A stretch of 64,000 nucleotides of DNA from a virus. The translations under genes were made by a program, and so were the position numbers. Of this stretch, positions 40,286 to 63,067 are shown one piece after another (position 1 is the stretch's first letter; every line of letters begins with the position of its first letter). Location of the stretch: positions 1-64,000 of IMG/VR virus record IMGVR_UViG_3300022746_000020. One strand, written 5' to 3'. Under the pieces are notes generated by a model that was not told the origin of the DNA, made no database searches, and saw only the letters and a list, made by a program, of their open reading frames with translations.

Positions 40286-41248
40286 ATGACACTCCAGATA
40301 AACTTAAAACAATTAAAAGCTGAAAGTGCTTCTAATAACTACGTGTTGACGTGGAGTAACGTCTCCAACTCATGGACGTCGTCGAATGCTACATCGCTGA
40401 TTGTTGCTGCCAACTCAACTGTCTCTGGTGTTGTTAGAATCCTCGATTCGTATGCCAATACGAGCACCAACATCGCAGCTTCTGTTAACTCTGTCAAGGT
40501 TGCATACGACACTGCAGTAACTGCTCAGAACATGGCATCGAATGCATATTCGAATGCAGCAACGCTTGCAGCATCAGCATATACAAACGCTGTCAGCTAT
40601 GCAGACACAAAGGCTGCTACTGCATACTCAAACGCAGTCGCATACGCAGCATCAAACACATACGTTAACTCAACATTCGCTCCTCTTGCTGGTGCAACTT
40701 TCACGGGCGCAATTGCTGCTGGTAATACAACTATTACAGGGTTCGCCAACGTCACAGGCACGTTGCAAGTTGGCGGACAAACGACAATTGGCGGTAACTT
40801 AGTTGTCAACGGTACGACCATCACAGTCAACACATCACAAATCAACGTCACAGATTCGTTGCTATATCTTGCTTCGAATAATGAAATCAGCGATTCGTTA
40901 GATATTGGTTTTGCTGCTCATTATAATGCAGGCGCTGGCGCTAACGGCCACACTGGATTGATTCGTTCAGCAACTACGAAAAAGTACTACCTATTTCAAA
41001 ACTATCAGCCAGAGTTCTATGCTAACAATAATATCGACGTAGCGAATACGTCGACCGGTATTCAGATGGCGGATCTCGTTGTCGGCAACTTTACCGCAAA
41101 CAACACACTTGCTGCTGGCAATACGACGATCACTGGTAGCTTGCGTGCTAATACAGGATTGCTGTCAGCTAATACGATTCAATTTAATGATGGATCACAA
41201 CAAACAACATACATCGATCCGATAGCGATGGCTATTGCCCTAGGATAA
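40286..41248 (+). CDS. Tail fibre protein, cassette A copy 1
   Basis: 320 residues. Layout: N-terminal adaptor (INLKQLKAESASNNYVLTW), a short alanine-rich coiled coil (about 80-125), SNTYVNSTFAPLAGATFTG, a beta domain with INVTDSLLYLASNNEISDSL and GFAAHYNAGAGANGHTG, KKYYLFQNYQPEF, and a short TTYIDPIAMAIALG tail. Genes 46825 and 55687 encode close paralogues. Each copy is followed by a 106-108-residue protein and then a fibre with a GN-SNT beta module, giving a three-gene cassette present three times. Likely a short fibre shaft to which the following tip attaches. Confidence 0.8.
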   Translation: MTLQINLKQLKAESASNNYVLTWSNVSNSWTSSNATSLIVAANSTVSGVVRILDSYANTSTNIAASVNSVKVAYDTAVTAQNMASNAYSNAATLAASAYTNAVSYADTKAATAYSNAVAYAASNTYVNSTFAPLAGATFTGAIAAGNTTITGFANVTGTLQVGGQTTIGGNLVVNGTTITVNTSQINVTDSLLYLASNNEISDSLDIGFAAHYNAGAGANGHTGLIRSATTKKYYLFQNYQPEFYANNNIDVANTSTGIQMADLVVGNFTANNTLAAGNTTITGSLRANTGLLSANTIQFNDGSQQTTYIDPIAMAIALG

Positions 41249-41255
41249 ATAAAAC

Positions 41256-41582
41256 ATGGCTTCTACATTCAAATCATCTGTCGCAAAATCTGTTGGTACG
41301 AGTGCTAACTCTGTATACACTGTTCCGTCGCTAACTACCACTACGGTGATTGGTTGGAACCTTTGCAACATCACATCGAATCCTGTTACTGTAGATCTAT
41401 ACTTCACAAGAAGTGCTGTCGATTACTACATCTTGAAGGGAGCTACTGTCCCACAAGGTGGTGCATTGGTTCCTGTTGGTGGAGATCAGAAATTGGTTCT
41501 CCAGGCAGCTGATGTATTGAAGGTAGTATCAGGTGCTGCTTCTGCGATTGATGCAACTGTTTCTTATCTCGAGACGACATAA
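41256..41582 (+). CDS. Small beta structural protein, cassette A copy 1
   Basis: 108 residues, predicted all-beta: SVYTVPSLTTTTVIGWNLCN, NPVTVDLYFTRSAVDYYILKG, GGALVPVGGDQKLVL, DVLKVVSGAASAIDATVSY. It is paralogous to the proteins at 47806 and 56665. The pattern resembles small jelly-roll/collar proteins found between fibre genes in marine phages; a joint between shaft and tip is a fair inference. The stop overlaps the next start by one base (TAATG). Confidence 0.7.
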   Translation: MASTFKSSVAKSVGTSANSVYTVPSLTTTTVIGWNLCNITSNPVTVDLYFTRSAVDYYILKGATVPQGGALVPVGGDQKLVLQAADVLKVVSGAASAIDATVSYLETT

Positions 41583-42628
41583 TGAGCTACATCGGAAATA
41601 GCTTAACACAACAATCATTTACAGGGGGCGTTGATCAGTTTAATGGCAACGCTTCTAATACTGCGTTTGGTCTAACGAGAACGATCAATACAAACTTCGA
41701 CGTCGATGTGTATGTCGAAAACGTATGGCAAAGACCCGGCGTAGGATATAACGTATCAGCAAACACAATTACATTTACATCAGCACCTTCTGCTGGTTCT
41801 AATAACGTAGTTGTAGTCTACAAGAATTTTACTGCAACGAGCGTTGTTCCCATTTCAGGATCAGTCACAACTACTACTTTAGTTGATGGTGCTGTTACGC
41901 CTGCAAAGCTGTCTACAGGCGCACCAAGTTGGGATAGCAGCAGCAACCATGCAGTTGCAGGCAACCAGACAATAGCAGGCAATCAGACAGTTGGCGCAGC
42001 TGGATCGATACTTGCTGAAAATAACCTCCGCTTCAAGTCTGCTGGTGATAGTTACGTCGACCACAATACGGTTGGCAGAAACATCAACTTCCGTGTGTCT
42101 AACGGATCCGCTCTCGATACAAATCCGCTCTCGATATTGTCTACTGGTGTAGTGTCCTTACCTTTAGGACAACTCAAATTTCCAGTCACACAAAACGCAT
42201 CCTCGGATGCAAACACATTAGATGATTATGAAGAAGGCACTTGGACGCCGGTAGTCACTCGCGCCACTACTGCTCCGACACTCACAACAGACGTACTGCA
42301 AGGTACCTATATTAAAGTGGGTCGCCTGGTTCATATATCAGTAAACCTACACGTAGCGTCGGTGTCGGCGGCTGGTGCTGGGTATAATTTAATCAGTGGG
42401 CTTCCTTTTCCAGCAGACAATTCTGCTGCCATCTGGAGCACACTCGGCGGAAGCGTCACATACAACAATGCGTTTGCGACCAGTGTCGCCACGGGATTGA
42501 GCTTCGGAGCTACGCTGACAGGGATATCTTTCCTACCATCAGGAAACTCGCGAACGCAGAGTGAAATTAATGAAAGTTGGACGTCTGGATACTTGGTATT
42601 CGCTGCTACATACCGCACAACCCAGTAA
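41582..42628 (+). CDS. Tail fibre / receptor-binding tip, DYEEGTWTP type
   Basis: 348 residues. The N-terminus has the beta module F-N-G-N-x-S-N-T-x-F (about 20-75) followed by a connector containing GAVTPAKLS. Around residues 209-222 is DANTLDDYEEGTWTP, the marker of a widespread phage tip domain; the C-terminal 125 residues (YIKVGRLVHISVNLHV, YNLISGLPFPAD) form the tip itself. The same type of tip ends the protein at 51598. It is the third gene of cassette A copy 1 and probably contacts a cell-surface sugar. Confidence 0.78.
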   Translation: MSYIGNSLTQQSFTGGVDQFNGNASNTAFGLTRTINTNFDVDVYVENVWQRPGVGYNVSANTITFTSAPSAGSNNVVVVYKNFTATSVVPISGSVTTTTLVDGAVTPAKLSTGAPSWDSSSNHAVAGNQTIAGNQTVGAAGSILAENNLRFKSAGDSYVDHNTVGRNINFRVSNGSALDTNPLSILSTGVVSLPLGQLKFPVTQNASSDANTLDDYEEGTWTPVVTRATTAPTLTTDVLQGTYIKVGRLVHISVNLHVASVSAAGAGYNLISGLPFPADNSAAIWSTLGGSVTYNNAFATSVATGLSFGATLTGISFLPSGNSRTQSEINESWTSGYLVFAATYRTTQ

Positions 42629-42636: not shown

Positions 42637-43599
42637 ATGGCAATCGATAAATTAAACGCTAATTCGTTCGCAAGCCCACTTAACTATAGTGGCAATCTTG
42701 TGATGTCCAATACAAGTGTGTTTATAATACCAGTTGGCAATACAAGCAACAGACCGTCAGCTAATGCGGGTGGCTTTCGCTTCAACTCCCAACGAGGTGT
42801 GCTCGAATATGCAGATGGAACGACATGGTATGGTACGAATGATATCACAGCGACTGGCGGAACAATCACTACTAATGGCGGCAATAACGTCCACACATTC
42901 ACATCGAGCGGCACGCTTACCGTAACATCAGGATCAAGATCCGCGACCGTTTTAATGGTCGGAGGTGCTGGTGCTGGTGGGTGGGACGTTGGTGGTGGCG
43001 GTGGCGCCGGCGGAGTAATTCAACAAACCGTAAGTTTAGTCCCAGGCGTATACAATATCGTAATCGGGGCTGGTGCAGCATCTTCGACGTCGGGTGGTGG
43101 TATTGCGCCAAGTGGATCAAACACAACGGCGTTCGGATTGACTGCAATTGGCGGTGGCGGCGGTGGCAATTATAATGGCGGATCTGGTGCTTCTGGCGGA
43201 TCGGGTGGCGGCGGCTCGGGGTATTCTGGTGGTTATCTTGCTGGCGGATCTGGAACATCTGGACAGGGATATGCTGGCGGTGCTGGCCGTTCGGATGCCT
43301 ATGGAACATCCTCAACTGGCGGTGGTGGTGGCGGAGCTGGTGGTGCTGGCAGCGATGGTATAAGCAGCACCACTGGTTATGCGAACGGTGGTAGCGGAAT
43401 TACGAGCTCGATATCTGGCACTACAACAACATATGCCGCAGGCGGCAAGGGTGGTGGTGATGGATGGACTACTGGTGGCAATGACGGTACCGCAAATAGA
43501 GGCAGCGGCGGCGATGGTGCTGGTAGCACAGACCCTCGTGGCAACAACGTAGGTGGTTATGGTGGGTCCGGCATTGTTATCATCACATACGCTGTATAA
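42637..43599 (+). CDS. Glycine-rich adhesin-type tail fibre tip
   Basis: 320 residues from the ATG at 42637 (the open frame continues upstream into the previous gene). Residues 1-100: fibre head (IDKLNANSFASP, RFNSQRGVLEYADGTTWYG) and a short beta domain (HTFTSSGTLTV). From about 108 to 308 the chain is dominated by glycine runs with Gly-Gly-x-Gly spacing (GGGGGAGG, SGGSGGGGSGYSGG), ending GGSGIVIITYAV. Such domains resemble polyglycine-II sandwiches in gp38-type adhesins of T-even phages, where loops between glycine helices bind receptor. The small protein at 43611 follows 11 bases later. Confidence 0.78.
   Translation: MAIDKLNANSFASPLNYSGNLVMSNTSVFIIPVGNTSNRPSANAGGFRFNSQRGVLEYADGTTWYGTNDITATGGTITTNGGNNVHTFTSSGTLTVTSGSRSATVLMVGGAGAGGWDVGGGGGAGGVIQQTVSLVPGVYNIVIGAGAASSTSGGGIAPSGSNTTAFGLTAIGGGGGGNYNGGSGASGGSGGGGSGYSGGYLAGGSGTSGQGYAGGAGRSDAYGTSSTGGGGGGAGGAGSDGISSTTGYANGGSGITSSISGTTTTYAAGGKGGGDGWTTGGNDGTANRGSGGDGAGSTDPRGNNVGGYGGSGIVIITYAV
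42960..43570 (+). repeat. Glycine-rich low-complexity coding region
   Basis: About 200 codons rich in GGN, encoding the tip of the preceding adhesin. Codons for glycine vary (GGT, GGC, GGA), so the low complexity is at protein rather than nucleotide level. Long antisense open frames here are a by-product of this composition. Confidence 0.8.
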
Positions 43600-43610: not shown

Positions 43611-43955
43611 ATGGGACATTTTGCAAAAGTAGTCGACAACACTGTAGTTCAGGTAATCGTAGCAGAGCCAGAGTTTTTCGATTCGTTCATAGACACTTCT
43701 CCTGGCGAATGGATACAGACATCCTATAATACAAGAGGGGGTATCCACATCCACGGAGGGACGCCTCTTCGCAAGAACTTTGCTGGAGTAGGATATACAT
43801 ACGACAAATTAAAGGATGCATTCATTCCCCCTCAACCATATCCAAGCTGGACGCTCGATGACGACACGTGTATGTGGAACCCGCCAATCGACAAACCTCA
43901 AGATGGGCAAAGATATGCGTGGGATGAGCAAACACAACAATGGAACGAAGTCTAA
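43611..43955 (+). CDS. Small fibre-associated protein (WTLDDDTC type)
   Basis: 114 residues. Conserved pieces VVDNTVVQVIVAEPEFF, LRKNFAGVGYTYD, DAFIPPQPYPSW and a Trp-rich C-terminus (WNPPIDKPQDGQRYAWDE) mark a family common among marine T4-like phages near fibre genes. Molecular function is not established; it may be an accessory or chaperone to the glycine-rich adhesin immediately upstream. SD GAGGT lies 9 bases before the start. Confidence 0.72.
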   Translation: MGHFAKVVDNTVVQVIVAEPEFFDSFIDTSPGEWIQTSYNTRGGIHIHGGTPLRKNFAGVGYTYDKLKDAFIPPQPYPSWTLDDDTCMWNPPIDKPQDGQRYAWDEQTQQWNEV

Positions 43956-43958: not shown

Positions 43959-44843
43959 ATGGCATTAACAAAATTAGATCCAAGCGTAATTGGGCAAGAC
44001 TCAACTGGTGCAAGCAAGATTACATCTGCAGGCGGTTCTGTGTCGATCGATTCGACTGGTAGCGTAAGAATTGCAAATAGCACTGCTAATAGTGTAACAA
44101 TTGCAGCGAACGGCAACGTAACGTTCGCTGCTAACGTAACTATCAATAGCGGCCTCAACATGAGTAATACTGCCGTTGTTGGTGGCTTTGTTGGCGTTGG
44201 TGGTGTTACCCCAATTCGTCATATTCACATCGGCGCTGCAGGCGCTGCAGAATTCATCATTGAACAAACAGACTCACCAGCAAACCATCGCAAATGGAAC
44301 ATCTTAGCGGATGGTGGTAACTCGACAACTAATGGTATTCTTCGCGTGAGAATGCTGAACGATAATGGTGTTGGTGAACAATTTACATCGATGATTTGGG
44401 ATGGTGCAGGACGCGTACGCAAGCCAATGCAAACGTTCTTTAGCGCAACTGCTCATAACACTGGTGGCACTGCATACATTGCTTCGCCTGCCACATACCC
44501 GTTCGTAACGTGGACACTGAGGGCACAGAACTCAGGCGGTGCATCTTTCTTCGATACATCGACTGGAATATTTACAGCTCCTGTAGATGGTGTATATGCC
44601 ATCGAAACTAACTTTGCAATCGACACATCGCTTGGTGGAACGTCGGTGCTCGGCCGATATATCTACATCCTTTCCTTCAACGGATCATATGAAGAGATTA
44701 TTGAGATGCACCACGAATACCAAAACGACGGCACCATATCGATGAGATATCTCACTGCCGGCACACAAGTCCGCGTAGGACTAAATGGCGTTGCAAACGC
44801 CACTGCGCACGGCGCATCTATTGCAGTATGGCTTCTGGGATAA
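43959..44843 (+). CDS. Tail fibre with C1q-like tip
   Basis: 294 residues. N-terminal head MALTKLDPSVIGQDSTG (shared start style MALTK(I/V) with 58780 and 60737), a short beta shaft (RIANSTANSVTIAANGNV), a middle domain with GGVTPIRHIHIG and ANHRKWNILADG, and a C1q/TNF-like tip from about 160: FFSATAHNTGG ... FDTSTGIFTAPVDGVYAIETNF ... AVWLLG. C1q-like tips are trimeric and often bind ligands with their apical loops. It starts 3 bases after the previous stop. Confidence 0.78.
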   Translation: MALTKLDPSVIGQDSTGASKITSAGGSVSIDSTGSVRIANSTANSVTIAANGNVTFAANVTINSGLNMSNTAVVGGFVGVGGVTPIRHIHIGAAGAAEFIIEQTDSPANHRKWNILADGGNSTTNGILRVRMLNDNGVGEQFTSMIWDGAGRVRKPMQTFFSATAHNTGGTAYIASPATYPFVTWTLRAQNSGGASFFDTSTGIFTAPVDGVYAIETNFAIDTSLGGTSVLGRYIYILSFNGSYEEIIEMHHEYQNDGTISMRYLTAGTQVRVGLNGVANATAHGASIAVWLLG

Positions 44844-44847: not shown

Positions 44848-45135
44848 ATGATCACATATACTGTATCGGTCACTGAAACACAAAACAAAGCACTTGCTGT
44901 GATGATGCTTGACCAGCAGCAGTGGGTCAGCGGTGTCGTCGAAGCGTATGTAAAAGCAGCAACGAAGCAAATCCTATCTATTGCCGTTCCGAAGTGCTTA
45001 GATCTAGGAATTCAAATCCCACAATCTGAAGAAGCAATCATCGAATTAGCATTAGCGCACAATTGGGTAAAAACAATTGCACAGCTAAACGCAGAAGCTG
45101 CTATCCGCGACGCAACAAGAAACCAACAAGGATAA
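44848..45135 (+). CDS. Small helical protein, fibre-associated
   Basis: 95 residues from the ATG at 44848 (the frame extends upstream inside the preceding gene). The N-terminus ITYTVSVTETQNKALAVMMLDQQQWVSGVVEAY resembles the start of the protein at 55408 (YTITLSAAEDKALGFIAFSQQEWIDNAV), so the two are paralogues; the rest is helical and variable. Sitting between two fibre genes, it is a candidate dedicated chaperone or accessory. Confidence 0.65.
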   Translation: MITYTVSVTETQNKALAVMMLDQQQWVSGVVEAYVKAATKQILSIAVPKCLDLGIQIPQSEEAIIELALAHNWVKTIAQLNAEAAIRDATRNQQG

Positions 45136-45142: not shown

Positions 45143-46603
45143 ATGTCATTAATCGGAAATCCATTAGTATCAACAAACTATCAAACCAACACCTTCAGTG
45201 GTGATGGTACGACGGTCGCATATACACTTTCGTTGGCGCCAGCATCTGCTGCGTCTATCGCTGTGTATATTAGTGGCCTATATCAAACACCAAGTGTTGC
45301 TTATACGGTAAGCGGCACTACGCTGACGTTTACTGGCGCTCCTCCTACTGGAACAAATAACATTCTAGTTCTTCATCTTGGTATCAAGAGTTCAACGCTA
45401 GTGCCAGTTGATGGATCTGTTACACCATCTATGTTGAGTAACGCAAACGTCGTATTCTGGAGCGGAGCTAATACTAACGTCGGTATCGGCAACACAGCTC
45501 CTAACGCGCCGCTAACGATTGGTGCTGCGAATGGTACGTTTACGAATCCACTAGTTCAGGCTGCAAGTAGTGCAAATAGCTGGCTGCAGATTAACGCTCA
45601 AAATAAGAGCAACGGCAATAACGCGTCAACAGACTTGATCCTTGCTCGATCGGATGGTAACGATAGCGTTGGCTATATCGATATGGGCATCAATAGCAAC
45701 ACATATGCTCAGGCTGCATACAGCATCATGACGCCAAGCAGTGGATACTTGTTCACCAACGGCGGCGACCTAGTACTCGGTACACAGACTGCTCATAATA
45801 TCCTATTCCATACTGGTAATACTACAAGTGCGTCTGAACGCATGCGTATCGACAGTTCTGGCAACTTCTTTGTAGGAGATACTGTTCAGGTCGAATCGGC
45901 AAAGTTTTCAGTAAAATCTGCAAAAACATTGTCGTCAGGAATTCCAGTAGGGCAGATGCTAGCAGTCGACAGCACCGCCCTTGCAGTGGGAACTGGTGGT
46001 GCTATTAATATGGGTGGAGTATATAATTCTGGCGGAGGAATTACAAGCTTCGCCTCCATAGAAGCATATAAAGAAAATGCTACTAGTGGTTCGTATGGTG
46101 CATCCATGGTGTTTAAGACGCGCACTGATGGTGGAGCGCAAACGGAGCGTATGCGCATCAATTCTCTTGGTTATGTAACCATGCCATACCAACCATCATT
46201 TCGTGTTTCAGGATCATCAACGACTTCATTCTCGAATGGGGCGATCATTCCGCTTACTGATGGTAATGGGTTTAATCTTGGTGGGTTTTGGAACAATACA
46301 TCGTATAGATTTACAGCGCCAGTGGCCGGAACGTATTTGTTCGCTGCGGCGATATATGTATGGAATGGTAGCGGGCAAGGCACGCAATCATATGCATTCA
46401 ACGTAAACGGCGGTCAGCTAAGTTCGGGAGATTCGCTCATTATGTACAGTGGTGCAGTTACTGGTGGCGACAACCAAACGAGAGGCGAATTGCTAGTTAA
46501 GCTCAATGCCGGCGATTATGTTGATTTGAGATTACGTATTGGTGCTCCTGCTGTAAACATATACGCAGGGCACACATATATGTGGGGATACATGGTAGGG
46601 TAG
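45143..46603 (+). CDS. Tail fibre with shared 100-residue module and C1q-like tip
   Basis: 486 residues. N-terminal beta module (FSGDGTTVAYTLSLAPA, about 13-90), connector with DGSVTPSML, then a conserved module at about 133-240 (NPLVQAASSANSWLQINAQN, MGINSNTYAQAAYSIM, GTQTAHNILFHTGNTT) also present in 51598 and 57002. The C-terminal domain from about 345 (YQPSFRVSGSSTT, YRFTAPVAGTYLFAAAIYVW) is C1q-like, ending in YMWGYMVG. Probably a receptor-binding fibre. Confidence 0.78.
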   Translation: MSLIGNPLVSTNYQTNTFSGDGTTVAYTLSLAPASAASIAVYISGLYQTPSVAYTVSGTTLTFTGAPPTGTNNILVLHLGIKSSTLVPVDGSVTPSMLSNANVVFWSGANTNVGIGNTAPNAPLTIGAANGTFTNPLVQAASSANSWLQINAQNKSNGNNASTDLILARSDGNDSVGYIDMGINSNTYAQAAYSIMTPSSGYLFTNGGDLVLGTQTAHNILFHTGNTTSASERMRIDSSGNFFVGDTVQVESAKFSVKSAKTLSSGIPVGQMLAVDSTALAVGTGGAINMGGVYNSGGGITSFASIEAYKENATSGSYGASMVFKTRTDGGAQTERMRINSLGYVTMPYQPSFRVSGSSTTSFSNGAIIPLTDGNGFNLGGFWNNTSYRFTAPVAGTYLFAAAIYVWNGSGQGTQSYAFNVNGGQLSSGDSLIMYSGAVTGGDNQTRGELLVKLNAGDYVDLRLRIGAPAVNIYAGHTYMWGYMVG

Positions 46604-46656: not shown

Positions 46657-46821
46657 ATGAACTTGAATTTTGTTTTTACGCTAGATCAAACCAATATTAT
46701 TCTTGCTGCTCTTGGCAAGCAAACGTTTGAGACTGTGGCACCGATCATCGACTCGATCCGCCAACAAGCTCAACCTCAATTGCAAGCTGCTGAGCAACAG
46801 GAATCACAACCAGAAGCATAA
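46657..46821 (+). CDS. Small protein, 54 residues, unknown
   Basis: MNLNFVFTLDQTNIILAALG then a Gln/Glu-rich tail. The start is fixed by a strong SD (GGAGAT, 4 bases before ATG); the open frame upstream is the read-through of the previous gene's 3' end. The pattern FTLDQTNIILAALGKQTFETVAPIIDSI is familiar from small proteins scattered near phage fibre genes. It has its own late promoter motif. Function unknown; possibly an accessory of the cassette that follows 3 bases later. Confidence 0.65.
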   Translation: MNLNFVFTLDQTNIILAALGKQTFETVAPIIDSIRQQAQPQLQAAEQQESQPEA

Positions 46822-46824: not shown

Positions 46825-47802
46825 ATGTCTAAGTTACGGATAGAGAAACTCAAACAAGGCAGCTCGTCTAATAACGACGTTCTTGTCTATAGGAATGACC
46901 TTGGTACCTATCAAGGGCAATCGAACCTATCCGTCAACACAATTCTGCTTGGCTCAAACTCTGTAAACTCTTCTGTTTACACTGGTACAGCTTATCTTGC
47001 AAATAGCGCAACATATCTTGCTGGACAGCCTGCATCATACTATGCAGTAAATACAGCTCCTGCGACCGCATACTCAAATGCCGTATCAACTGCTGCAGCA
47101 GACGCTACATCTAAAGCTGCAACCGCATATTCTAATGCAACTGCTTATGCGGATACTAAGGCAGCAACTGCATACGCTAATGCAATCGCATATTCTGGCA
47201 ACGCTGCTGCAGCATACGCTAATGCAATCGCCTATGCTGCATCAAACACATATGTCAATTCGACATTCGCACCGCTAGCCAACCCTACGTTCTCTGGCTC
47301 AATGCTATTGAACGGTAGCGCGACAATCACTGGAAACTTGGTTGTCAACGGCAACACAATTTCGATCAATACGACCTCGATTAACGTTACCGATTCGTTG
47401 CTATACCTTGCTTCGAATAACGAAGTCAGCGACTCTCTCGATATCGGATTTGCAGCTCACTACAACGCTGGAGCTGGAGCAAATGGACATACAGGTCTAA
47501 TCAGATCTGCAACTACGAAGAAGTATTATCTGTTCCAGAACTATCAACCAGAGTTCTACGCGAACAATAACGTAGATGTTGCAAATACATCTACAGGCAT
47601 TCAAATGGCAGACTTGGTTGTCGGTAATCTGGTCGCAAACAGCACACTAACTGTCACAGGACAGGCAAACGTAGGCAGTCTAAATACAACAGGGACAGTT
47701 ACTGCAAACGTAATCTCAGTAGCTAACGTCTCACAAACACAAACGAATTTGCAAGTTGATCCTGCAGGTTCAGCGTTCCTCAACGCAATCATTTACGGAT
47801 AA
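46825..47802 (+). CDS. Tail fibre protein, cassette A copy 2
   Basis: 325 residues, paralogous to 40286 and 55687: N-terminal adaptor LRIEKLKQGSSSNNDVLVYR, alanine-rich coiled coil (about 80-140), STFAPLANPTFSG, INVTDSLLYLASNNEVSDSL, GFAAHYNAGAGANGHTG, KKYYLFQNYQPEF, and a QTNLQVDPAGSAFLNAIIYG tail. The tail differs from copy 1 but resembles copy 3, so the attachment end may be swapped among copies. Confidence 0.8.
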   Translation: MSKLRIEKLKQGSSSNNDVLVYRNDLGTYQGQSNLSVNTILLGSNSVNSSVYTGTAYLANSATYLAGQPASYYAVNTAPATAYSNAVSTAAADATSKAATAYSNATAYADTKAATAYANAIAYSGNAAAAYANAIAYAASNTYVNSTFAPLANPTFSGSMLLNGSATITGNLVVNGNTISINTTSINVTDSLLYLASNNEVSDSLDIGFAAHYNAGAGANGHTGLIRSATTKKYYLFQNYQPEFYANNNVDVANTSTGIQMADLVVGNLVANSTLTVTGQANVGSLNTTGTVTANVISVANVSQTQTNLQVDPAGSAFLNAIIYG

Positions 47803-47805: not shown

Positions 47806-48126
47806 ATGGCTTCTACACAAACCAGTTATCTTAATTCAGCAGTCGGTACAACGCCGGCTACTATCGTTACGGCATCTGCAACGACTGCTTTGGTAGGCTG
47901 CCAAGTCGCAAACATATCTGGCGCAGCAATCACAGTCGATGTGTATATCACGCGCAGCGCAACGAACTACTACCTAATCAAGGGCGTAACGATTCCGGTC
48001 GGAGGCGCTCTCGCCTTGATTGGCGGAGACGTTAAACACTTCTTGGTTACAGGCGATGTGCTGAAATGCGTTTCGAGCGCAGCATCGAGTGCAGACTTTG
48101 TAACTAGTGCAGCGGTAGGTGTCTAA
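47806..48126 (+). CDS. Small beta structural protein, cassette A copy 2
   Basis: 106 residues, paralogous to 41256: ALVGCQVANISGAAITVDVYITRSATNYYLIKG is matched nearly position by position. Same order within the cassette and same one-base stop/start overlap with the following fibre gene. Confidence 0.7.
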   Translation: MASTQTSYLNSAVGTTPATIVTASATTALVGCQVANISGAAITVDVYITRSATNYYLIKGVTIPVGGALALIGGDVKHFLVTGDVLKCVSSAASSADFVTSAAVGV

Positions 48127-50076: not shown

Positions 50077-50252
50077 TGTCACTATACGAAAAAATCAAAA
50101 CAATTTATCCAGAATTGACGGATGCAGAGTTTGCACCTCGCGGTACTATCTCATTAGAGAATGCCAGTGACGGACGAGGCGACTATATTGCTAAGTGGGA
50201 ACATCATACTCTAGCTAGACCTACCGAAGAACAGCTAGCTGCGATCGAATAA
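50073..50252 (+). CDS. Small protein, 59 residues, fibre-associated
   Basis: Starts within the stop region of the C1q-like tip gene. Sequence: SLYEKIKTIYPELTDAEF at the start, then GTISLENASDGRGDYIAKW and RPTEEQLAAIE. The pattern (short helix, beta hairpin with KW, Pro-T-EEQL) is typical of small accessory proteins near phage tips. The frame is fully open and its overlap with the neighbour supports translation. Confidence 0.65.
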   Translation: MMSLYEKIKTIYPELTDAEFAPRGTISLENASDGRGDYIAKWEHHTLARPTEEQLAAIE

Positions 50253-55407: not shown

Positions 55408-55674
55408 ATGTCAAAAACATACACAATTACTCTTTCCGCAGCCGAAGACAAGGCACTTGGATTCATCGCTTTCTCTCAACAAGAATGGATCGATAATGCC
55501 GTTCACGAGCGTTGCCGCATTGCTATCGAAGAAATCGTAGCAGCAGAAGTTCAACGCAAACTTGCAGCTGGCGAAACAATCTCTGGCTCTAAAGAAGACA
55601 TCGTTGTTGCAGCTCCAATCCAATCGGCAGCAGAACGTCAAGCAGCAGCTGAGGCAGCACAACCTAACGCTTAA
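55408..55674 (+). CDS. Small helical protein, fibre-associated
   Basis: 88 residues, paralogous at its N-terminus to 44848: YTITLSAAEDKALGFIAFSQQEWIDNAV. The remaining helices (IEEIVAAEVQRKLAAG) are Ala/Glu-rich. SD AAGGAA lies 9 bases before ATG. Located just before cassette A copy 3, it may be a chaperone for it. Confidence 0.68.
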   Translation: MSKTYTITLSAAEDKALGFIAFSQQEWIDNAVHERCRIAIEEIVAAEVQRKLAAGETISGSKEDIVVAAPIQSAAERQAAAEAAQPNA

Positions 55675-55686: not shown

Positions 55687-56661
55687 GTGCGCAAGATAGA
55701 CTTTTCAAGACTAAAAACGACTGAGGCGGTTCCGTCTGGCTTTCTGTCGTTAATGTCGACGTCGCTTTATAATGCAAACTCAACAACGAGTGGTATTGTA
55801 AAGCTGGTAGACACTACGTCTAACACTAGCGCAACAGTTGCCGCTTCAGCAAACGCCGTTAACCAGACATTAGTCAGCGCTCAGATTCTCGCTGGCTCTG
55901 CATATGCCAATGCCGTCACTTACACCAATTCGTTAGGCGCGACGGCATACGCTAACGCCGTTGCATATGCAAACACAATCGCAGCGACAGCGTACGCGAA
56001 TGCAGCAAGCAGAGCAGCAGATGCATTTACGAACGCTGTTGCATATGCAGCATCGAACACGTACGTCAATACACAGCTCGGTCTCAAGGCAGATCTGGCT
56101 GGTGCGTCATTCACGGGTGCCGTTTCCATCGCAAATAGCGCAAACGTTTCTGGTTCGTTACAAGTTGGCGGTGTGCTAACAGTAGCAGGAAACTTGGTAA
56201 TTAATGGAACGACAACGACTGTTAACACAAGTTCGATCAACGTTACCGATTCGTTGCTATACCTTGCTTCCAACAATGAAGTATCTGATTCTTTAGATAT
56301 TGGTTTTGCTGCTCACTATAATAATGGTGCTGGCGCGAATGGTCATACTGGTTTGATTAGAAGTTCACTCACGAAAAAGTATTACCTATTTCAAAACTAT
56401 CAACCAGAGTTCTTCGCAAATAACGTAGTAGATGTTGCTAATACTGCAACTGGTATTCAGATGGCAGACTTGGTCGTTGGTAACTTTACTGCAAACAATA
56501 CACTCGCTGCCGGTAACACAACAATTACAGGCACCCTAAATACTTCCGGATTACTTACCGCTAATGCGATCACAGTATCGAATGTTAGCGCGACTCAAAC
56601 TAACTTACAAGTAGACGCGGCCGGAACAGCAACTGCTATGGCTATCGTCTTCGGTGGATAA
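55687..56661 (+). CDS. Tail fibre protein, cassette A copy 3
   Basis: 324 residues from a GTG start 12 bases after the previous stop. Same plan as 40286 and 46825: adaptor IDFSRLKTTEAVPSGFLSLM, alanine-rich coiled coil (about 65-125), AASNTYVNTQLGLKADLAG, INVTDSLLYLASNNEVSDSL, HYNNGAGANGHTG, KKYYLFQNYQPEFF. The tail ends with VDAAGTATAMAIVFGG. The three copies are about equally diverged by eye, so duplication is not recent. Confidence 0.8.
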   Translation: MRKIDFSRLKTTEAVPSGFLSLMSTSLYNANSTTSGIVKLVDTTSNTSATVAASANAVNQTLVSAQILAGSAYANAVTYTNSLGATAYANAVAYANTIAATAYANAASRAADAFTNAVAYAASNTYVNTQLGLKADLAGASFTGAVSIANSANVSGSLQVGGVLTVAGNLVINGTTTTVNTSSINVTDSLLYLASNNEVSDSLDIGFAAHYNNGAGANGHTGLIRSSLTKKYYLFQNYQPEFFANNVVDVANTATGIQMADLVVGNFTANNTLAAGNTTITGTLNTSGLLTANAITVSNVSATQTNLQVDAAGTATAMAIVFGG

Positions 56662-56664
56662 ACA

Positions 56665-56991
56665 ATGGCAAACACGTTCAAAAATAAAGGCCTAGCATTA
56701 ACAACGACGTCTAGAACGGACTTGTATACTTGCCCAGCTAACACAGCTGCAGTTATTCATACACTAAACATTGCAAACGTCAATGGCGTGTCTAGCTCTT
56801 CGATTACGATTGAAGTATATGATACATCCGCAGCTGCATACTATAAAATTGGATACTTGATTCCAGTTCCAGGCGGATCGTCATACTTCTATGATAAGCC
56901 TTTGAATTTGGAAGCAGGGGACAAGGTATCGTTAACTGCGACTACAGCGAACTACTTGGAAGCGTTTGCATCTATTCTTGAAATTGCATAA
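56665..56991 (+). CDS. Small beta structural protein, cassette A copy 3
   Basis: 108 residues, more distant from 41256 and 47806 but with the same strand plan (VIHTLNIANVNG, SITIEVYDTSAAAYYKIGYLIPVPGG, LNLEAGDKVSLTAT, FASILEI). It sits in the same slot between fibre shaft and GNGSNT fibre. Confidence 0.68.
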   Translation: MANTFKNKGLALTTTSRTDLYTCPANTAAVIHTLNIANVNGVSSSSITIEVYDTSAAAYYKIGYLIPVPGGSSYFYDKPLNLEAGDKVSLTATTANYLEAFASILEIA

Positions 56992-57001
56992 GGAGCGCTA
57001 A

Positions 57002-58777
57002 ATGGGATATGGTGGCAAAATAGCCTCGCGCTCAGGTGACGTAAGAAGATTCAACTTTACAGGCAATGGATCGAACACAGCTTTCGATCTTGGTTTCTCG
57101 CCTGCAACACAAAACCAACTAATCATCACGATCAACGGCGTCGTTCAACACTACGATGCGTTCTCTGTTTCAGGCTCGGTAGTAACATTCACTGGCACGC
57201 CTGCGGCTGGCGATTATATTCAAGTCACAGCAGTTGTAGACGCTATCGGTGTGACTGGTATTCCAGACGGTGCGATCGCAAACGTATCTTCTTTGAAAGT
57301 CACAACTACGCCGGTGTTAATTGGTAATGCGGTTGGTACCTTCAGCAATCCAATCATCCAAGCAGCAAGCACAGCTAACAGTTGGATTCAAATTAACGCA
57401 CAGAATTTAAATAACGGCAACAATGCATCAACTGATGCTATTCTTGCTCGTTCTGATGGTAATGATAATGCTGGATACATCGATATGGGTATCAACAGCA
57501 ATACGTACAGCCAAGCTGCATACAGCATTATGACGCCGAACAGCGGCTATGTGTTTGTTAATGGTGGTGACTTGGTGCTCGGTACTCAGACTGCTCACAA
57601 CATCATTTTCCATACTGGCAATACGACCGCCAGTTCAGAGAGGCTGCGAATCACATCCAATGGCGCTATCGCGTTCCCAGACGGCACACAATTCAGCACT
57701 GCCAGTTCATTCGGAATGCGCAATCGTGTTATCAATGGTGCGATGGCATTCGATCAGCGCGCGTCGGGTAACCCACAAACAGGTGTCACTGGCGGGGCAG
57801 GATGGTATTTGGCGGACCGGTTTCGTATAGGTGGTTCGGCGCTCACGACAGGACGACTTACTTTCCAACAAGTCGTTGACGCCCCAGCTGGATTTAAATA
57901 TTCTGGCAAAATCACAACCACGGCCGCACAGACGACAACAACTGAAACTATTGTTTTATCGCACATCATTGAGGGGTTAAACACTTTAGATCTTGGCTGG
58001 GGAACAGCCAGCGCTGCTAACGTCACGTTGTCGTTTTGGGTTAAGGCATCATTAACTGGCACCTACCCTGTGGCGGTACGTTGCGATAATGCAAACGCAA
58101 CCTACGTTGCAACGTATACAATTAATAGTGCAAATACGTGGCAATATATAACGTTGAATATTCCTGGCCCAACATTTGGAACGTGGAGCACGACTAACGC
58201 AAATGGTATCCGTATCGATTGGGATTTGGGGTCTGGAACGAATGGGTCCTCATCTTCCGCTGGTAATGTAACTACGACTCCAAATGCATGGCAGACATAC
58301 GATGCGTTTAGAACGTCAACTAGTGTGCAGCTACAAGCTAACTTGAATGCGACATGGCAGATCACAGGCATTCAGTTTGAAAGGGGTAATGTGGCTACTC
58401 CATTTGAAGCGAGATCGTTCAGCACAGAACTGGCTTTGTGCCAGCGCTACTATCAAATCATAGCAGCAGGTTCGGGTGCACCCATTGGTATAGGTGCATT
58501 TGTTGGAACTACCGATTTCAGATTGTCGTATATGTTCCCTGTACAGATGAGAGCAGCACCTAGCGGCATAACGTGCGTCAGTGGTACTGGTTACTACCGC
58601 TTCTATTGGGGCAGTGGCGTAAGCTCGACGTTCAACGGATTTGTGCTAGACACTGCATCCCCACAAGGCATATCAATGTACACTGGTGGTGGTTTGTCGG
58701 GTGTTACAGCAGGCCAGAGTGGGTTCTGTTTAACAAACAATACAGCTGCGTATTTGGCAGCTAATGCGGATCTATAA
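57002..58777 (+). CDS. Long fibre: beta module, shared module and KNRIINGAM-type tip
   Basis: 591 residues. N-terminal module FTGNGSNTAFDLGFSPATQN (about 19-85), shared module (NPIIQAASTANSWIQINAQN, MGINSNTYSQAAYSIM, about 118-215), then FGMRNRVINGAMAFDQRASG near 236 opens a tip like that of 50279 (LSFWVKASLTGTY, WQITGIQFERGNVATPFEAR, LALCQRYY) ending LAANADL. It is the third gene of cassette A copy 3 and combines the parts of 45143 and 50279. SD AGGAG is 6 bases before ATG. Confidence 0.8.
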   Translation: MGYGGKIASRSGDVRRFNFTGNGSNTAFDLGFSPATQNQLIITINGVVQHYDAFSVSGSVVTFTGTPAAGDYIQVTAVVDAIGVTGIPDGAIANVSSLKVTTTPVLIGNAVGTFSNPIIQAASTANSWIQINAQNLNNGNNASTDAILARSDGNDNAGYIDMGINSNTYSQAAYSIMTPNSGYVFVNGGDLVLGTQTAHNIIFHTGNTTASSERLRITSNGAIAFPDGTQFSTASSFGMRNRVINGAMAFDQRASGNPQTGVTGGAGWYLADRFRIGGSALTTGRLTFQQVVDAPAGFKYSGKITTTAAQTTTTETIVLSHIIEGLNTLDLGWGTASAANVTLSFWVKASLTGTYPVAVRCDNANATYVATYTINSANTWQYITLNIPGPTFGTWSTTNANGIRIDWDLGSGTNGSSSSAGNVTTTPNAWQTYDAFRTSTSVQLQANLNATWQITGIQFERGNVATPFEARSFSTELALCQRYYQIIAAGSGAPIGIGAFVGTTDFRLSYMFPVQMRAAPSGITCVSGTGYYRFYWGSGVSSTFNGFVLDTASPQGISMYTGGGLSGVTAGQSGFCLTNNTAAYLAANADL

Positions 58778-58779
58778 TC

Positions 58780-59436
58780 ATGGCACTGACTAAAATAACA
58801 GCAACAAATATTGGATACACACCCGCTAACAAGGCAGGCGATGTTCTAACTGGTGCTCTTACAGTGCCAAACTTGGGTGTTGGTAGCGTAGCCGATTCTA
58901 ATACTACGAATAGAACAATCACATATCAGAATGCTGGAAAGAACTGGTATGTTGGATTGCGCGGCGACACATCTAATGCGTGGTCAATTGCTGATGATTC
59001 TGCACATCGAATGATGGTCGACGCTAACGGTCGCATCACGATGCCATACCAACCAAGCTGGTGCGTTGAGTATTATGGTATGACTGTGTCCGCAAGCACG
59101 ACATATAACTATACTGGTGGCACTGTGTTCATTAACAACGGTTCCTACTACTCAACGAGCACCGGCAGGTTCACTGCTCCCGTTGCAGGATACTACTTGG
59201 TGAGCGCATCGATTGAGCAGAGCACTTCGTCGGGCACGACTGGGTCAGTAGTAGTAAACAAGAATGGGGCTAGCCAGTTTCAAGCGCTCGCGTATAGCGC
59301 CATATACAACAGCGGTTCTTTGACTGGTATAATTTACTGCGCGGTAAATGATTACCTCACATTAACATCATATGGCAACAACGGCCTTTCTTACAACGTA
59401 TACACAACACGCTTCACAGGCCATTTGATAGGATAA
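58780..59436 (+). CDS. Tail fibre with C1q-like tip
   Basis: 218 residues. Head MALTKITATNIGYTPANKAG, a short middle domain (GKNWYVGLRGDTSNAWSIAD), and a C1q-like tip from about 90 (QPSWCVEYYGMTVSASTTYN, FTAPVAGYYLVSASIEQ, VNDYLTLTSYG) ending FTGHLIG. It starts 2 bases after the previous stop. Confidence 0.76.
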   Translation: MALTKITATNIGYTPANKAGDVLTGALTVPNLGVGSVADSNTTNRTITYQNAGKNWYVGLRGDTSNAWSIADDSAHRMMVDANGRITMPYQPSWCVEYYGMTVSASTTYNYTGGTVFINNGSYYSTSTGRFTAPVAGYYLVSASIEQSTSSGTTGSVVVNKNGASQFQALAYSAIYNSGSLTGIIYCAVNDYLTLTSYGNNGLSYNVYTTRFTGHLIG

Positions 59437-59440
59437 TACA

Positions 59441-60733
59441 ATGAGCTACTCAGGCGTACAACCAACATTCGGGACGTTCCCAAGCGATCTATTCACAGGT
59501 AATGGATCGAATACTGTTTTCACATTGTCGTCCGTTCCAGGAAATAAAGCAGCGTTGCTTATTTCGATCGATGGTGTTCGTCAGCACACCGACACATATT
59601 CGTATTCTGCTAACACACTATCATTCAGTGAAGCTCCTCCTAGCGGAGCTATCATCGAAGCGATCAATATGGGCTCTCGTGCCGATGTTGTCGTTACTGA
59701 TGGCGTATATCGCAAGTCTCAATTTACAGCAACGGCCGCTCAAACAAACTTCAACATTGCTACTGGATATACAATCGGCTTTGTTGATGTATATTTGAAC
59801 GGTATTCGTTTAGTTGTTGGCGATGACTATACAGCAAATGATGGTTCGACAATCATTCTAGCAGTTGCTGCAGCTGCAGGTGATGCCGTCGAAGTTGTTG
59901 CATATGGTACGTTCAATGTTGCTAATGCATTGCTAAAGTCTGGCGATACGATGTCAGGCAACCTAGTTGTTTCTGGCACATCGATTATGGCGACGCCGCA
60001 CGCGATTGCCAATACAACAGGCAACACTGTAGTTTTTGCCAACACTGGTGTAGTCACATTCAATGCAAACACCATACACGTTGGTGCTGCTACATTTAGT
60101 AATGCCGTATCGATAACAAGCACTATTACTGAAACTGTAAGTCCGCAGACTGCAATTGAAACGACGGTTCTTCAGATGACCGATAGTAGTGCTATCAATT
60201 ACTTGGGTAGTATACGCACATATAATAACGGCGGATACAATCAGTCGCTTCGTATATACACGACAAACTTGGGTGGAGCAAAATCAAACGAAATCAAGGC
60301 CATGGAACTAAACGGCAATGGTTACGTCACTATGCCATACCAACCAGCATTCAGTGCTGTAAAAACAGCAAACGTTGTCAATGGAACTGGCACATACACA
60401 AGCTGGCCAACTGTGCATGTTAATGTAGGAAACAGCTTCAATGCCACTACTGGTGTGTTTACAGCTCCTATTGCAGGCGTATATCAATTTACCGTGTCTG
60501 CTATGGCTAGCGGCACTGGTTATATTAACGTATTCATTTATAAAAATGGCACGAGTGTAGTGGGCGGAGGGGCACGTCCAGCCAACTCCACATACGATCA
60601 GGCAGAACGTACTATAATGCTATCGCTAGCTGTCGGAGATACGGTATATGTATCAGATGGGGTCGGCGGCAACCAGGCTGTATTCAGCGATAGTAATGGT
60701 TGGTTGTCGTTCCTTGGAAGGCTTGTAGGATAA
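59441..60733 (+). CDS. Tail fibre with two N-terminal beta modules and C1q-like tip
   Basis: 430 residues. Module 1 FTGNGSNTVFTLSSVPGNKA (about 19-85) is of the 45143 type; module 2 FTATAAQTNFNIATGYTIGFVDVYLNGIRL (about 92-150) is of the 51598 type; then SGDTMSGNLVVSGTSI, a short shaft, and a C1q-like tip from about 300 (YQPAFSAVKTANVVNG, FTAPIAGVYQFTVSAMA) ending FLGRLVG. It shows both N-terminal module types in series. Confidence 0.78.
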   Translation: MSYSGVQPTFGTFPSDLFTGNGSNTVFTLSSVPGNKAALLISIDGVRQHTDTYSYSANTLSFSEAPPSGAIIEAINMGSRADVVVTDGVYRKSQFTATAAQTNFNIATGYTIGFVDVYLNGIRLVVGDDYTANDGSTIILAVAAAAGDAVEVVAYGTFNVANALLKSGDTMSGNLVVSGTSIMATPHAIANTTGNTVVFANTGVVTFNANTIHVGAATFSNAVSITSTITETVSPQTAIETTVLQMTDSSAINYLGSIRTYNNGGYNQSLRIYTTNLGGAKSNEIKAMELNGNGYVTMPYQPAFSAVKTANVVNGTGTYTSWPTVHVNVGNSFNATTGVFTAPIAGVYQFTVSAMASGTGYINVFIYKNGTSVVGGGARPANSTYDQAERTIMLSLAVGDTVYVSDGVGGNQAVFSDSNGWLSFLGRLVG

Positions 60734-60736
60734 TAT

Positions 60737-61948
60737 ATGGCACTAACAAAAGTAACATCTAACGTATTAGGCAATAGCGCAGTCACGTCTGCGAAGATCG
60801 CTCTATCAAATACTGGGTTGACGTTCAACGATGGCAGCAACCAAATGACTGCTGCATCCGGATTCGGTTTCAAGAACCGCATCATTAATGGTGCGATGAT
60901 GATCAATCAGCGAGGTGTGACTACATTGACTGTTAACAACGGCAATTCTTCGACTGTTGGTGGCACATACTTTCAGGACCGGTTCATACTACCTAGCGCC
61001 ACCGCAGTGTCGCAATATTCAACCACACCCTCAGCATTTACTTGTGCTGTAACAAACAACGCTGCGTCGATCGGATATCCGTTCTGTTTTTCGATTACAG
61101 TCAATACGGCAGGTGTGGGCGGAACGAACCGAGACATTTCGTTTATATCTCATAAAGTGGAGGTCGGAAACCTCAGCGATCTTGCGTACGGAACATCCAA
61201 TGCGCAACCAGCTACACTTTCGTTTTGGATTCGCTCGAGTCTCATCGGCCAGAGATCCCTATTCATATACAGTCCCATTACAAATCGATATATTCAGCCG
61301 TCGTTTACGATAAACGCTGCGAATACTTGGGAATATAAGACGATTACGATTCCAGGGGACACGACGGCATCATTTGGCACAACGATGAACGCTGAGGCCA
61401 TTCGGATTGAATTCCGCACATCCTGTTCCGGAACGACTCTGGCAGCAGCAACCAACACATGGGCAACGCTAAGCAGTCAACGTGCTGTAACTGGGGATGT
61501 TGATTTCTTCGGTACAGTCGGAGCAACACTAGATATTACAGGCATTCAATTTGAAAAAGGCCCATCAGCAACATCGTTCGATCATCGCCCATATGGATTA
61601 GAATTGTCCTTGTGTCAAAGATACTATGCTACCATCAATAACCCAGGAAACGTTTCCTATGCTAGATATTCATTAGGACTATGCCGCTCGACTGGAACGT
61701 CGTCGATGGACCTATACGTACATCTGCCAGTTCCAATGAGAACGACGCCAGTATTCAGTACGACAGGCAGCTTCGTTATGGATCCAGGAGCAATCGCTGT
61801 AAGTAGTATCAGTCTATATTCCGCTATTGCAGGATACCAGTACATAGCATTGGCGCCAGTGACTGCATCAAGCATGTCTGTTGGCCCAATATCACTTGTT
61901 CAGAATGCAACTACACAATCATCGTTGAACTTCTCAGCGGAACTATAA
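60737..61948 (+). CDS. Tail fibre tip, KNRIINGAM type
   Basis: 403 residues. Head MALTKVTSNVLGNSAVTSAK, FNDGSNQMTAASGFGFKNRIINGAMMINQRG (about 32-60), then the beta domain with LSDLAYGTSNAQPATLSFWI, INAANTWEYKTITIPGDT, ITGIQFEKGPSATSFDHRPY, LSLCQRYY, ending FSAEL. Paralogous to 50279 and 61952, with a different C-terminal 120 residues, as expected if the tip end is under diversifying selection. Confidence 0.78.
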   Translation: MALTKVTSNVLGNSAVTSAKIALSNTGLTFNDGSNQMTAASGFGFKNRIINGAMMINQRGVTTLTVNNGNSSTVGGTYFQDRFILPSATAVSQYSTTPSAFTCAVTNNAASIGYPFCFSITVNTAGVGGTNRDISFISHKVEVGNLSDLAYGTSNAQPATLSFWIRSSLIGQRSLFIYSPITNRYIQPSFTINAANTWEYKTITIPGDTTASFGTTMNAEAIRIEFRTSCSGTTLAAATNTWATLSSQRAVTGDVDFFGTVGATLDITGIQFEKGPSATSFDHRPYGLELSLCQRYYATINNPGNVSYARYSLGLCRSTGTSSMDLYVHLPVPMRTTPVFSTTGSFVMDPGAIAVSSISLYSAIAGYQYIALAPVTASSMSVGPISLVQNATTQSSLNFSAEL

Positions 61949-61951
61949 AAT

Positions 61952-63067
61952 ATGTCAAGAGCAAGACAAGTATCACAATTAATTGGTGCATCTAATACTC
62001 ATGTAGTAACAACGCCAGCAACGTTTAGCAATACAGTCACTGTTGCTAACTCAGGCATTACGTTCGGCGATGCTACAGTTCAGAACACAGCTGCTAGTGG
62101 ATTTGGCTTTAAGAACCGCATCATCAATGGTGCGATGGTGATCGACCAGAGGAATGGTGGGGCCAGTGTTGCATATGGATCCACTACCACTGCTGGTAAC
62201 TATTATGGTTATAACGTCGACCGTTGGTGGGCACAAAGCTACTCTACAACCGCAGGTAACGGAGCAGCCTTTACGGTACAACAGTCAAGCGTAGCGCCGA
62301 CTGGAATTCCTAGTTCCATCGTTGCTACCGTCACCAGCTCGCAGACAACGCTTCAGAGCGACAGTTTATACCGCATACAACAAGTTATAGAAGGGTATAA
62401 TGTCGCTGATATTGGATTTGGATCTGCTACTGCATCAGCCGTTACCCTATCGTTCTGGGTCAGATCCAATCTTACAGGCACATTCACTGGCGTATTAGGC
62501 AACGACGTTGACTACGCCTACCCATTTACATACACAATCAATGCCGCAAATGTGTGGCAGCAGATCGTGATTACTATTCCAGGAGCGACAGCTGGTACGT
62601 GGCTAAAGAACAACGGCAAGGGAATACTGATTGCGTGGTGTCTTGGTGCACATACATCGCGCCTTGGTACTGCTGGTGCGTGGGTCGCTAGTGCAAACTA
62701 CCAAGGGGCTTCTGGTCAAACGAACTTCATGGCGACAGTTGGTAATACGTTCTACATCACAGGCGTTCAACTAGAAAAAGGCTCAACAGCGACATCATTT
62801 GACTACCGTCCATATACCACTGAACTCCAGCTGTGTCAGCGTTATTACGAAGTTGGTGACAACCAACTATACCTTCCAGTAGTCGCTGGCAACGCTGTTG
62901 CAGCTATAAATTTCAAGGTTACGAAACGAGCATCGGCATCCATTACTACTGTATATGGTAATGGTTCAGCATCGAATGTGGCTGGCTCTACCAACGGAAT
63001 AACTTGGGTTTACTATGGTACATCCCTAGTCCAGGTTAACTCTTGGACCGCTTCGGCTGAACTATAA
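61952..63067 (+). CDS. Tail fibre tip, KNRIINGAM type
   Basis: 371 residues. Head ARQVSQLIGASNTHVVTTPA and a brief shaft, then FGFKNRIINGAMVIDQRNGG near 50, VADIGFGSATASAVTLSFWV, YTINAANVWQQIVITIPGAT, ITGVQLEKGSTATSFDYRPY, LQLCQRYY, ending WTASAEL. It is the last fibre gene of the array. Confidence 0.78.
   Translation: MSRARQVSQLIGASNTHVVTTPATFSNTVTVANSGITFGDATVQNTAASGFGFKNRIINGAMVIDQRNGGASVAYGSTTTAGNYYGYNVDRWWAQSYSTTAGNGAAFTVQQSSVAPTGIPSSIVATVTSSQTTLQSDSLYRIQQVIEGYNVADIGFGSATASAVTLSFWVRSNLTGTFTGVLGNDVDYAYPFTYTINAANVWQQIVITIPGATAGTWLKNNGKGILIAWCLGAHTSRLGTAGAWVASANYQGASGQTNFMATVGNTFYITGVQLEKGSTATSFDYRPYTTELQLCQRYYEVGDNQLYLPVVAGNAVAAINFKVTKRASASITTVYGNGSASNVAGSTNGITWVYYGTSLVQVNSWTASAEL

Follow-up and report, generated by a model that had tools for sequence, protein, structure and literature searches.

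Ordered candidate sockets for exchangeable tips in the fibre array of a T4-like aquatic phage

Earlier work has described large islands of fibre genes (PMC7029224), C1q and fibre tips that are hypervariable (PMC3909814) and hyperbranched fibre systems with fourteen tips (PMC9700779). The first of these, the host recognition clusters (HRCs) of cyano- and pelagimyophages, are hypervariable, average 34-45 kb and mix tail fibres with glycosyltransferases and other non-structural genes (PMC7029224). Among the variable genes of marine metaviromic islands, those for C1q, carbohydrate-binding, fibrinogen-like and XkdW proteins rank with the commonest, and fibre C-termini are more variable than N-termini (PMC3909814). 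In G7C, CBA120 and phiKp24, the last with 14 fibres, a single tail bears numerous receptor-binding proteins, which dock through distinct N-terminal parts and differ in their C-terminal parts (PMC9700779). Here we describe an array of fibre and tip genes at positions 40286-63067 of a 64,000-nt window (the whole stretch of DNA analysed, itself part of the 74,655-base virus record IMGVR_UViG_3300022746_000020). We read it as an HRC with three cassettes and about sixteen sockets, whose tips would be displayed simultaneously and exchanged between phages by homologous recombination, and we give this reading a probability of roughly 60%.

The array is identified as an HRC because of its position between gp8 and gp13: gp8 ends at 10158 and gp13 stands at 63670, an interval of 53.5 kb, where fifteen relatives found through gp13 have about 11 to 41 kb. 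As in the described clusters, it is a large fibre island running from the baseplate genes to a neck gene, in the same genomic place and variable among relatives. The portion of the HRC report considered here describes no cassette, slot or adaptor organisation, whereas the present array shows an exceptional number of tips in ordered slots (PMC7029224). It comprises 31 intact genes, all on the + strand, with 97% coding density and intergenic gaps mostly of -4 to +12 nt, which divide into three shafts, three adaptors, 16 tip proteins of at least six types and nine small genes, three of the latter encoding fewer than 60 amino acids (46657, 50076 and 51434). The initial annotation had proposed a very large fibre array from the letters alone, and the array is real: a check of the open reading frames (ORFs) found every one it named at its start, 42637 being an ATG inside the frame whose listed start is 42577, and 53134 having GTG as its start codon.

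The genes follow a recurrent order of a shaft with a hydrophobic C-terminal tag, an adaptor, a tip with a 'YIG' head and then more tips. The three shafts are paralogous, and so are the three adaptors, which form one family and are 32-45% identical; the tip right after each shaft-adaptor pair begins MSYIGN, MAWIGA or MGYGGK. Cassette 1 opens with the shaft at 40286..41248 (tag IDPIAMAIALG) and an all-beta adaptor of 108 amino acids (41256..41582), followed by tip S1-A (41582..42628, head MSYIGN, DYE tip), a Gly-rich tip (42637..43599) with the small gene of such tips (43611..43955, phrog_7759), tip S1-B (43959..44843, head MALTKLDPSVIGQ, C1q-like), a small gene of the family of 55408 (44848..45135), tip S1-A2 (45143..46603, head MSLIGNPLVS, C1q-like) and a small ORF of 54 amino acids (46657..46821). 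In cassette 2, the shaft at 46825..47802 (tag SAFLNAIIYG) and an adaptor of 106 amino acids (47806..48126) precede tip S2-A (48126..48719, head MAWIGASGALTNQ), conserved over the whole protein in relatives, and tip S2-x of the MEIAG type (48719..49282) with a small XkdW-like gene (49279..49554, phrog_9114). They are followed by tip S2-B (49558..50076, head MALILDGGGT, weakly C1q-like), an XkdW-like protein of 58 amino acids (50076..50252), tip S2-K (50279..51433, head MSVVVDGSNG, KNRIINGAM tip), its 54-amino-acid partner of the DYQEYLKW family (51434..51598), tip S2-A2 (51598..52821, head MSYLGIPPFG, DYE tip) and the small partner of DYE tips (52877..53131, phrog_6228). The cassette ends with tip S2-C (53134..54312, head (V/M)SNSRTLSDFIGSSG, tip fold unassigned), another small XkdW-like gene (54312..54611, phrog_9114), tip S2-B2 (54615..55370, head MALSKITADS, C1q) and the small gene after it (55408..55674). 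Cassette 3 consists of a shaft with a GTG start (55687..56661, tag ATAMAIVFGG), an adaptor of 108 amino acids (56665..56991) and five tips: S3-A (57002..58777, head MGYGGK, KNRIINGAM), S3-B (58780..59436, head MALTKITATN, C1q), S3-A2 (59441..60733, head MSYSGVQPTF, C1q), a KNRIINGAM tip with head MALTKVTSNV (60737..61948) and S3-C (61952..63067, head MSRARQVSQLIG, KNRIINGAM).

A scan of viral contigs with the three adaptor proteins revealed 107 distinct adaptor loci, around which the same order recurs. The protein encoded 5' of the adaptor has a hydrophobic C-terminal end (33 families compared with 208 background proteins, p = 1e-13), as in AMAIALG, FSIAMSIAL, ALILALG or VAALLDDV; the test is one of hydropathy against background, earlier strict regular expressions (40/105) having been too narrow. 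In 72 of 104 cases, the protein encoded 3' of it opens with the motif M-x-(Y/W/F)-(I/V/F/L/Y)-G; three of 296 background proteins do so, all three being tips of the window itself. The order was also found in the isolates Melnitz, CRP-9 and Rhizobium phage RHph_I1_18, and relatives carry from one to three cassette units (one in G012 and G014, two in Melnitz, three in G015); Synechococcus phage RB11-B, like Melnitz, has two adaptors. A Melnitz protein that begins with a YIG head also ends in a C-terminal tag, and a further adaptor comes after it, an arrangement suggestive of chained units. From these patterns, contacts between tag, adaptor and YIG head are predicted. In this regard the array differs from the systems of G7C, CBA120 and phiKp24, which use T4gp10-like docking and depolymerase tips, whereas here a putative C-terminal tag and a separate small adaptor would serve, and the tips are of C1q, Gly-rich and KNRIINGAM types (PMC9700779). 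Pfam scans of the scanned proteins gave no T4gp10-like docking domain, no dedicated profile search having been made.

The adaptor is modelled as an all-beta domain with a predicted local distance difference test score (pLDDT) of 94. Two of the three adaptors were scanned and match phrog_1276 / phrog_26609; these families have no assigned function, and we propose the tag-adaptor-YIG context for them. In S-TIM5, MaMV-DC and S-SCSM1, the annotation of fold homologues is that of virion structural proteins. ORF127 of S-CREM2, considered as a further homologue, was rejected on comparison. By sequence, no convincing relative was found in the PDB (best E 0.02), and since Foldseek gave only weak fold matches, to the Ena spore appendage and to the cement protein of phage KHP30/40 (E ~5e-4, template modelling score ~0.57), the adaptor is assigned to no solved family. 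The weak similarity to a cement protein would fit a different arrangement, in which the proteins are split among long fibres, short fibres, neck whiskers and capsid decorations instead of building one branched apparatus. T4 keeps genes 9-12 and wac in the corresponding place of its genome, and the array occupies that very position. Such a split is nevertheless unlikely, given that almost every adaptor has a tagged fibre on one side and a YIG tip on the other and that the three cassettes repeat as units.

Comparison with two relatives, the 235-kb G023 and G024 (G022/G023 core DNA ~78-85% identical), separates what is kept in each slot from what changes. In G023, 13 of the 16 heads match the same slot in colinear order, with 55-92% identity over 60 residues (median 83%), compared with a median of 23% between unrelated slots. 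Of the corresponding tips, taken as the last residues up to 120, four of 13 have kept high identity (82-95%); the other nine stand at 14-37%, five of them having changed type and four having diverged within their type. The type changes comprise DYE to KNRIINGAM at 41582, C1q to KNRIINGAM at 43959 and 59441, C1q to another type at 45143, and a Gly-rich tip in the slot of 53134, to which G024 adds C1q tips in the slots of 53134 and 57002. Moreover, the Gly-rich tip found here in cassette 1 lies in cassette 2 of G023, and its small partner gene moves along. The pattern, in which C-termini vary more than N-termini as in the metaviromic islands, points to relatives that would differ mainly by exchanged single tips with the sockets kept.

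The same comparison bears on whether the tips have sockets of their own. All of them might be made and those with YIG or MALTK heads compete for a few equivalent sites, so that each particle would carry a random subset, and in line with this some heads of different slots are 40-53% alike and the three adaptors belong to one family. However, the identity between heads of different slots has a median of 23%, against 55-92% for the same slot in the relative, and a fixed order of slots would be unnecessary for such mosaic virions, which we therefore regard as improbable. In T-even phages, the adhesin at the distal end of the fibre is reportedly swapped by recombination between conserved motifs. 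Tip specificity would likewise be exchanged here through conserved flanks, at about sixteen parallel loci instead of one.

A single replacement of this kind is seen in a near-identical metagenomic contig, L179, which over most of 15 kb shows no single-nucleotide polymorphisms (SNPs) with respect to the window in 51387-55308, 55679-59382 and 60950-66698. Between these stretches, a 1.6-kb recombination tract on the + strand (59383..60949) contains 34 SNPs to the left of a tip and 24 to its right, and the tip segment of 59441 (60104-60722) is wholly replaced by another C1q-like tip, 738 vs 619 bp. The best match of the new tip in the window reaches ~28% at the amino acid level, and because it has no close relative there the donor was most likely another phage. 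Whereas the metaviromic islands were coverage based, the exchange here takes the form of a bounded import tract and of slot-by-slot replacement with paired small genes (PMC3909814). In a near-identical pair of contigs from a different phage (L220/L221), the head MALGKIKADT is kept and the C-terminal part replaced; localized replacements in two other pairs (L125/L127 and L295/L296) fall inside shaft proteins, not tips. A second cluster, of five SNPs between the window and L179, covers 55309-55678, which takes in the last part of tip 54615 together with the adjoining small gene, and is perhaps another exchange tract.

In the imported head of 59441, 28 SNPs are silent and one is not, and the ratio of nonsynonymous to synonymous substitution rates (dN/dS) between relatives is ~0.05-0.14 in adaptors, conserved tips and two shafts, dS being often saturated. 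A graveyard of captured tips, few of them functional and kept for want of size pressure, is hard to credit in view of these values and of the lack of any interrupted gene among the 31, for all that shafts are shortened in G023 and individual slots have been lost or gained; at the level of sequence, then, the tips are not degenerate. The initial annotation had posed a choice between a branched apparatus displaying many adhesins at once and an archive of alternative tips shuffled by recombination. Display is the better supported branch, through own starts, intact frames, colinear slot heads in most tips, purifying selection and what looks like one late operon; shuffling does occur, but between phages, and an internal archive is not supported. 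An archive, where one or a few tips are used and the rest stored for recombination into an expression site, could draw on the recurrence of paralogous modules within the genome and on the occupation of different slots by one tip type in different genomes. Against it, all tips have start codons of their own, conserved heads are present in most of them, nucleotide identity between internal copies does not exceed ~75%, so that none is near-identical, and nothing in the window accounts for the tip imported in L179. No headless or inverted alternative tips occur among the 31 genes, and neither a reverse transcriptase (RVT_1) nor a serine recombinase or resolvase was detected in G000 (a fragment), G021 or the 235-kb G023, control genomes being positive in both searches. 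Over 49.5 kb, a single SNP separates G021 from the window, and thus no rearrangement is seen in it. An internal archive worked by a retroelement or by inversion was accordingly rejected, and a store of any kind has a very small probability. Altogether, display in many sockets is favoured because the tips have their own heads in a fixed order under selection, and a silent store disfavoured because neither copies without a head or promoter, nor near-identical tracts, nor a dedicated enzyme came to light.

The small genes support a further level of specificity, since each lies directly downstream of a tip and is specific to its type, as in Tfa/gp38-like pairs. Tip type predicts the family of the small 3' gene in 14 genomes (permutation p <= 5e-5), in a set of pairs that takes in some related genomes and leaves aside 31 tips without a recognised small gene. 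KNRIINGAM tips are followed by a DYQEYLKW protein of 52-57 amino acids in 18 of the 19 cases having a recognised small gene, DYE tips by phrog_6228 in 8/8 and Gly-rich tips by phrog_7759 in 7/7; C1q tips go with XkdW-like or 55408-like genes, and the MEIAG type with XkdW-like or tail assembly chaperone (APC) genes. In the gp24-gp25 pair of tail fibre and chaperone of phage Pam3, a TNF-like, Gly-rich fibre tip is folded by the dedicated chaperone, which is absent from virions (PMC9608196), and because of this precedent the small genes here are probably dedicated chaperones as well. The likeness lies in the type of tip and its dedicated helper, while Pam3 has one fibre and one chaperone where the present array has several small gene families, each specific to a tip type (PMC9608196).

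Most of the tip types first named from the sequence proved sound. All four KNRIINGAM tips match phrog_4492 (E 1e-40 to 1e-52), the two DYE tips phrog_17970, and 42637 the Pfam family Gly_rich_2 (PF21722). The C1q label stands above the Pfam cut-off for 59441, 54615 and 58780, is borderline for 45143 and falls below the cut-off for 43959 and 49558, the sole family match of the last being phrog_15750; a local profile unites all six, which are all among its seeds. In contrast, the fibrinogen-like identity given to 53134 is not supported: no family of Pfam, the fibrinogen one included, no NCBIfam family and no PDB entry matches it, and a single-sequence AlphaFold model (pLDDT 30) was unusable. This protein is ~30% identical over 94% of its length to unnamed cyanophage proteins, and 48719 and 48126 represent separate tip types. 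The remark that most T4-like phages encode a few such genes understates the aquatic relatives, in view of the HRC sizes cited above. Counted with local profiles seeded partly with the genes counted, typed tips number 13 here, 13 in G023, 11 in the partial G024, 11 in the more distant G031, nine in the cultured Synechococcus phage RB11-B, four in G012 and none in 14 of 15 gp13-related contigs. The array is thus extreme in tip number, not alone. G031 (L143, with L303 and L304), a different phage, has a single adaptor, and its eleven typed tips include seven of the KNRIINGAM type.

The true start of the array lies upstream, at 28029, where a late promoter and three larger fibre genes stand ahead of 40286. 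The T4-type promoter TATAAATA (27992..27999, + strand) lies 29 nt upstream of the gene that opens the fibre operon; this gene encodes a protein of 109 amino acids (28029..28358) matching phrog_1084/phrog_3304 (L-shaped tail fibre assembly) and is kept in relatives; in G031, a homologue of it adjoins the array. Next come, all on the + strand, a repetitive fibre protein of 1847 amino acids (28364..33907), fibre proteins of 1073 (33982..37203, start MAGTKVQIKR) and 879 amino acids (37203..39842), and a tail assembly chaperone (39845..40273; Pfam Phage_tail_APC, E 5e-21). The promoter has no other exact copy on the + strand of the window, where its number of matches alone is not above chance, and it stands at the same place upstream of the homologous gene in G023, G025, G002 and G017. 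Sites resembling Shine-Dalgarno sequences precede 20 of the 34 genes tabulated from 28029 to 63683, compared with 14% of random positions. A single late operon of at least 35 kb from 28029 would be the simplest reading of this layout.

In the wider setting, baseplate genes (gp5/gp26-like, gp25, gp6, gp7-like and gp8) lie 5' of the array, and neck, sheath-completion, terminase, sheath, tube and portal-like genes 3' of it; gp25, gp6, the wedge protein and gp8 have phrog matches, and the neck, sheath, tube and portal-like ORFs, on contig L006, were recognised by order and sequence. The order gp25-gp6-gp7-gp8 ... gp13-gp14-gp15-gp17-gp18-gp19-gp20 is kept, and the terminase (terL) is 53-55% identical to those of cyanophages, pelagiphage Mosig and Methylophilales phage Melnitz. 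By gene order and these identities, the virus is a T4-like (Pantevenvirales/Kyanoviridae-like) aquatic myophage. A DNA-level comparison gave no match of the array in the isolate collection. Upstream of the fibre operon, 18721-27944 holds a non-structural block, partly on the minus strand, whose genes by eye resemble glycosyltransferases, QueC, radical SAM proteins, a fatty acid desaturase and a FabF-like ketosynthase. Downstream, a GIY-YIG homing endonuclease-like gene (63114-63683, phrog_314) carries the leader and first eight codons of gp13, so that both genes begin MAVPNSRQ and gp13 restarts at 63670 from its own copy; G023 lacks the insert, and the same leader stands there directly before gp13. 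In G025 (L173), a GIY-YIG-like ORF of 221 amino acids sits between the cassette 1 shaft tag and the adaptor and ends ...AAIALG, a repeat of the end of the shaft protein, and both cases suggest insertions that would rebuild the edge of the neighbouring gene. Two further endonuclease-like ORFs (L006 4417-4854 and 5610-6311) lie among gp13, gp14 and gp15, which makes three such inserts within ~3 kb.

The cassettes, slots, tip exchange, tip-to-small-gene pairing and tag-adaptor-YIG order, all read from sequence, lead to the following proposal. The late operon from 28029 would make all cassette proteins together; the short hydrophobic tag of a trimeric shaft would bind the small beta-sandwich adaptor, which would receive the YIG head of the first tip of its cassette, while further tips with other slot-specific heads would dock elsewhere on the same assembly. 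Most tips would be folded with the help of the dedicated small protein encoded just 3', and many would be displayed at once in fixed sockets. Co-circulating phages would trade single tips, along with the small partner genes, through homologous recombination for which the conserved heads and the start of the next gene serve as anchors. In S-CREM2, a member of Kyanoviridae, six of eight proteins encoded from gp8 to the neck were found in virions (PMC10665884).

Several points weigh against this proposal. The S-CREM2 proteins are not homologous to the tips here, and for this reason the simultaneous display of tips in one particle is something that we infer, for a phage known here from its genes; physical contacts, trimers and chaperone function are likewise putative. 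In G023, no clear match is seen for the heads of slots 42637, 48719 and 60737, and the cassette 2 and cassette 3 shafts have a short length of 90 and 152 amino acids, while the frame of the cassette 2 shaft ends early in G024 (247 amino acids). Several YIG heads are alike (45% between 41582 and 48126), so that tips could compete for one adaptor instead of owning a socket. Furthermore, L179 could be a chimera of two co-occurring strains mimicking an import tract, and chimeric assembly may apply to L220/L221 alike; even a chimeric L179, however, implies that allelic tips exist on one and the same head.

In the literature searched, which is incomplete, ordered sockets with exchangeable tips, the pairing of tips with small genes and the tag-adaptor-YIG junction were not found described. 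More broadly, a widespread tag/adaptor/YIG connector may allow aquatic phages to plug tips in series and in parallel; in this phage it would support about sixteen ordered adhesins per virion, and each socket would evolve as tips drawn from a common gene pool replace one another, a tentative view that we hold at somewhat short of even odds. If the sockets are real, they would provide a general wiring rule for fibres, of fixed docking heads, exchangeable tips and a tip-matched small gene, as well as a function for a very common unnamed small virion protein (phrog_1276). Differences in host recognition would become readable slot by slot from metagenomes, and near-clonal phages would offer a natural record of single-tip replacements. 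The reason for keeping about sixteen adhesins, and the number of them used per infection, would then become directly testable.

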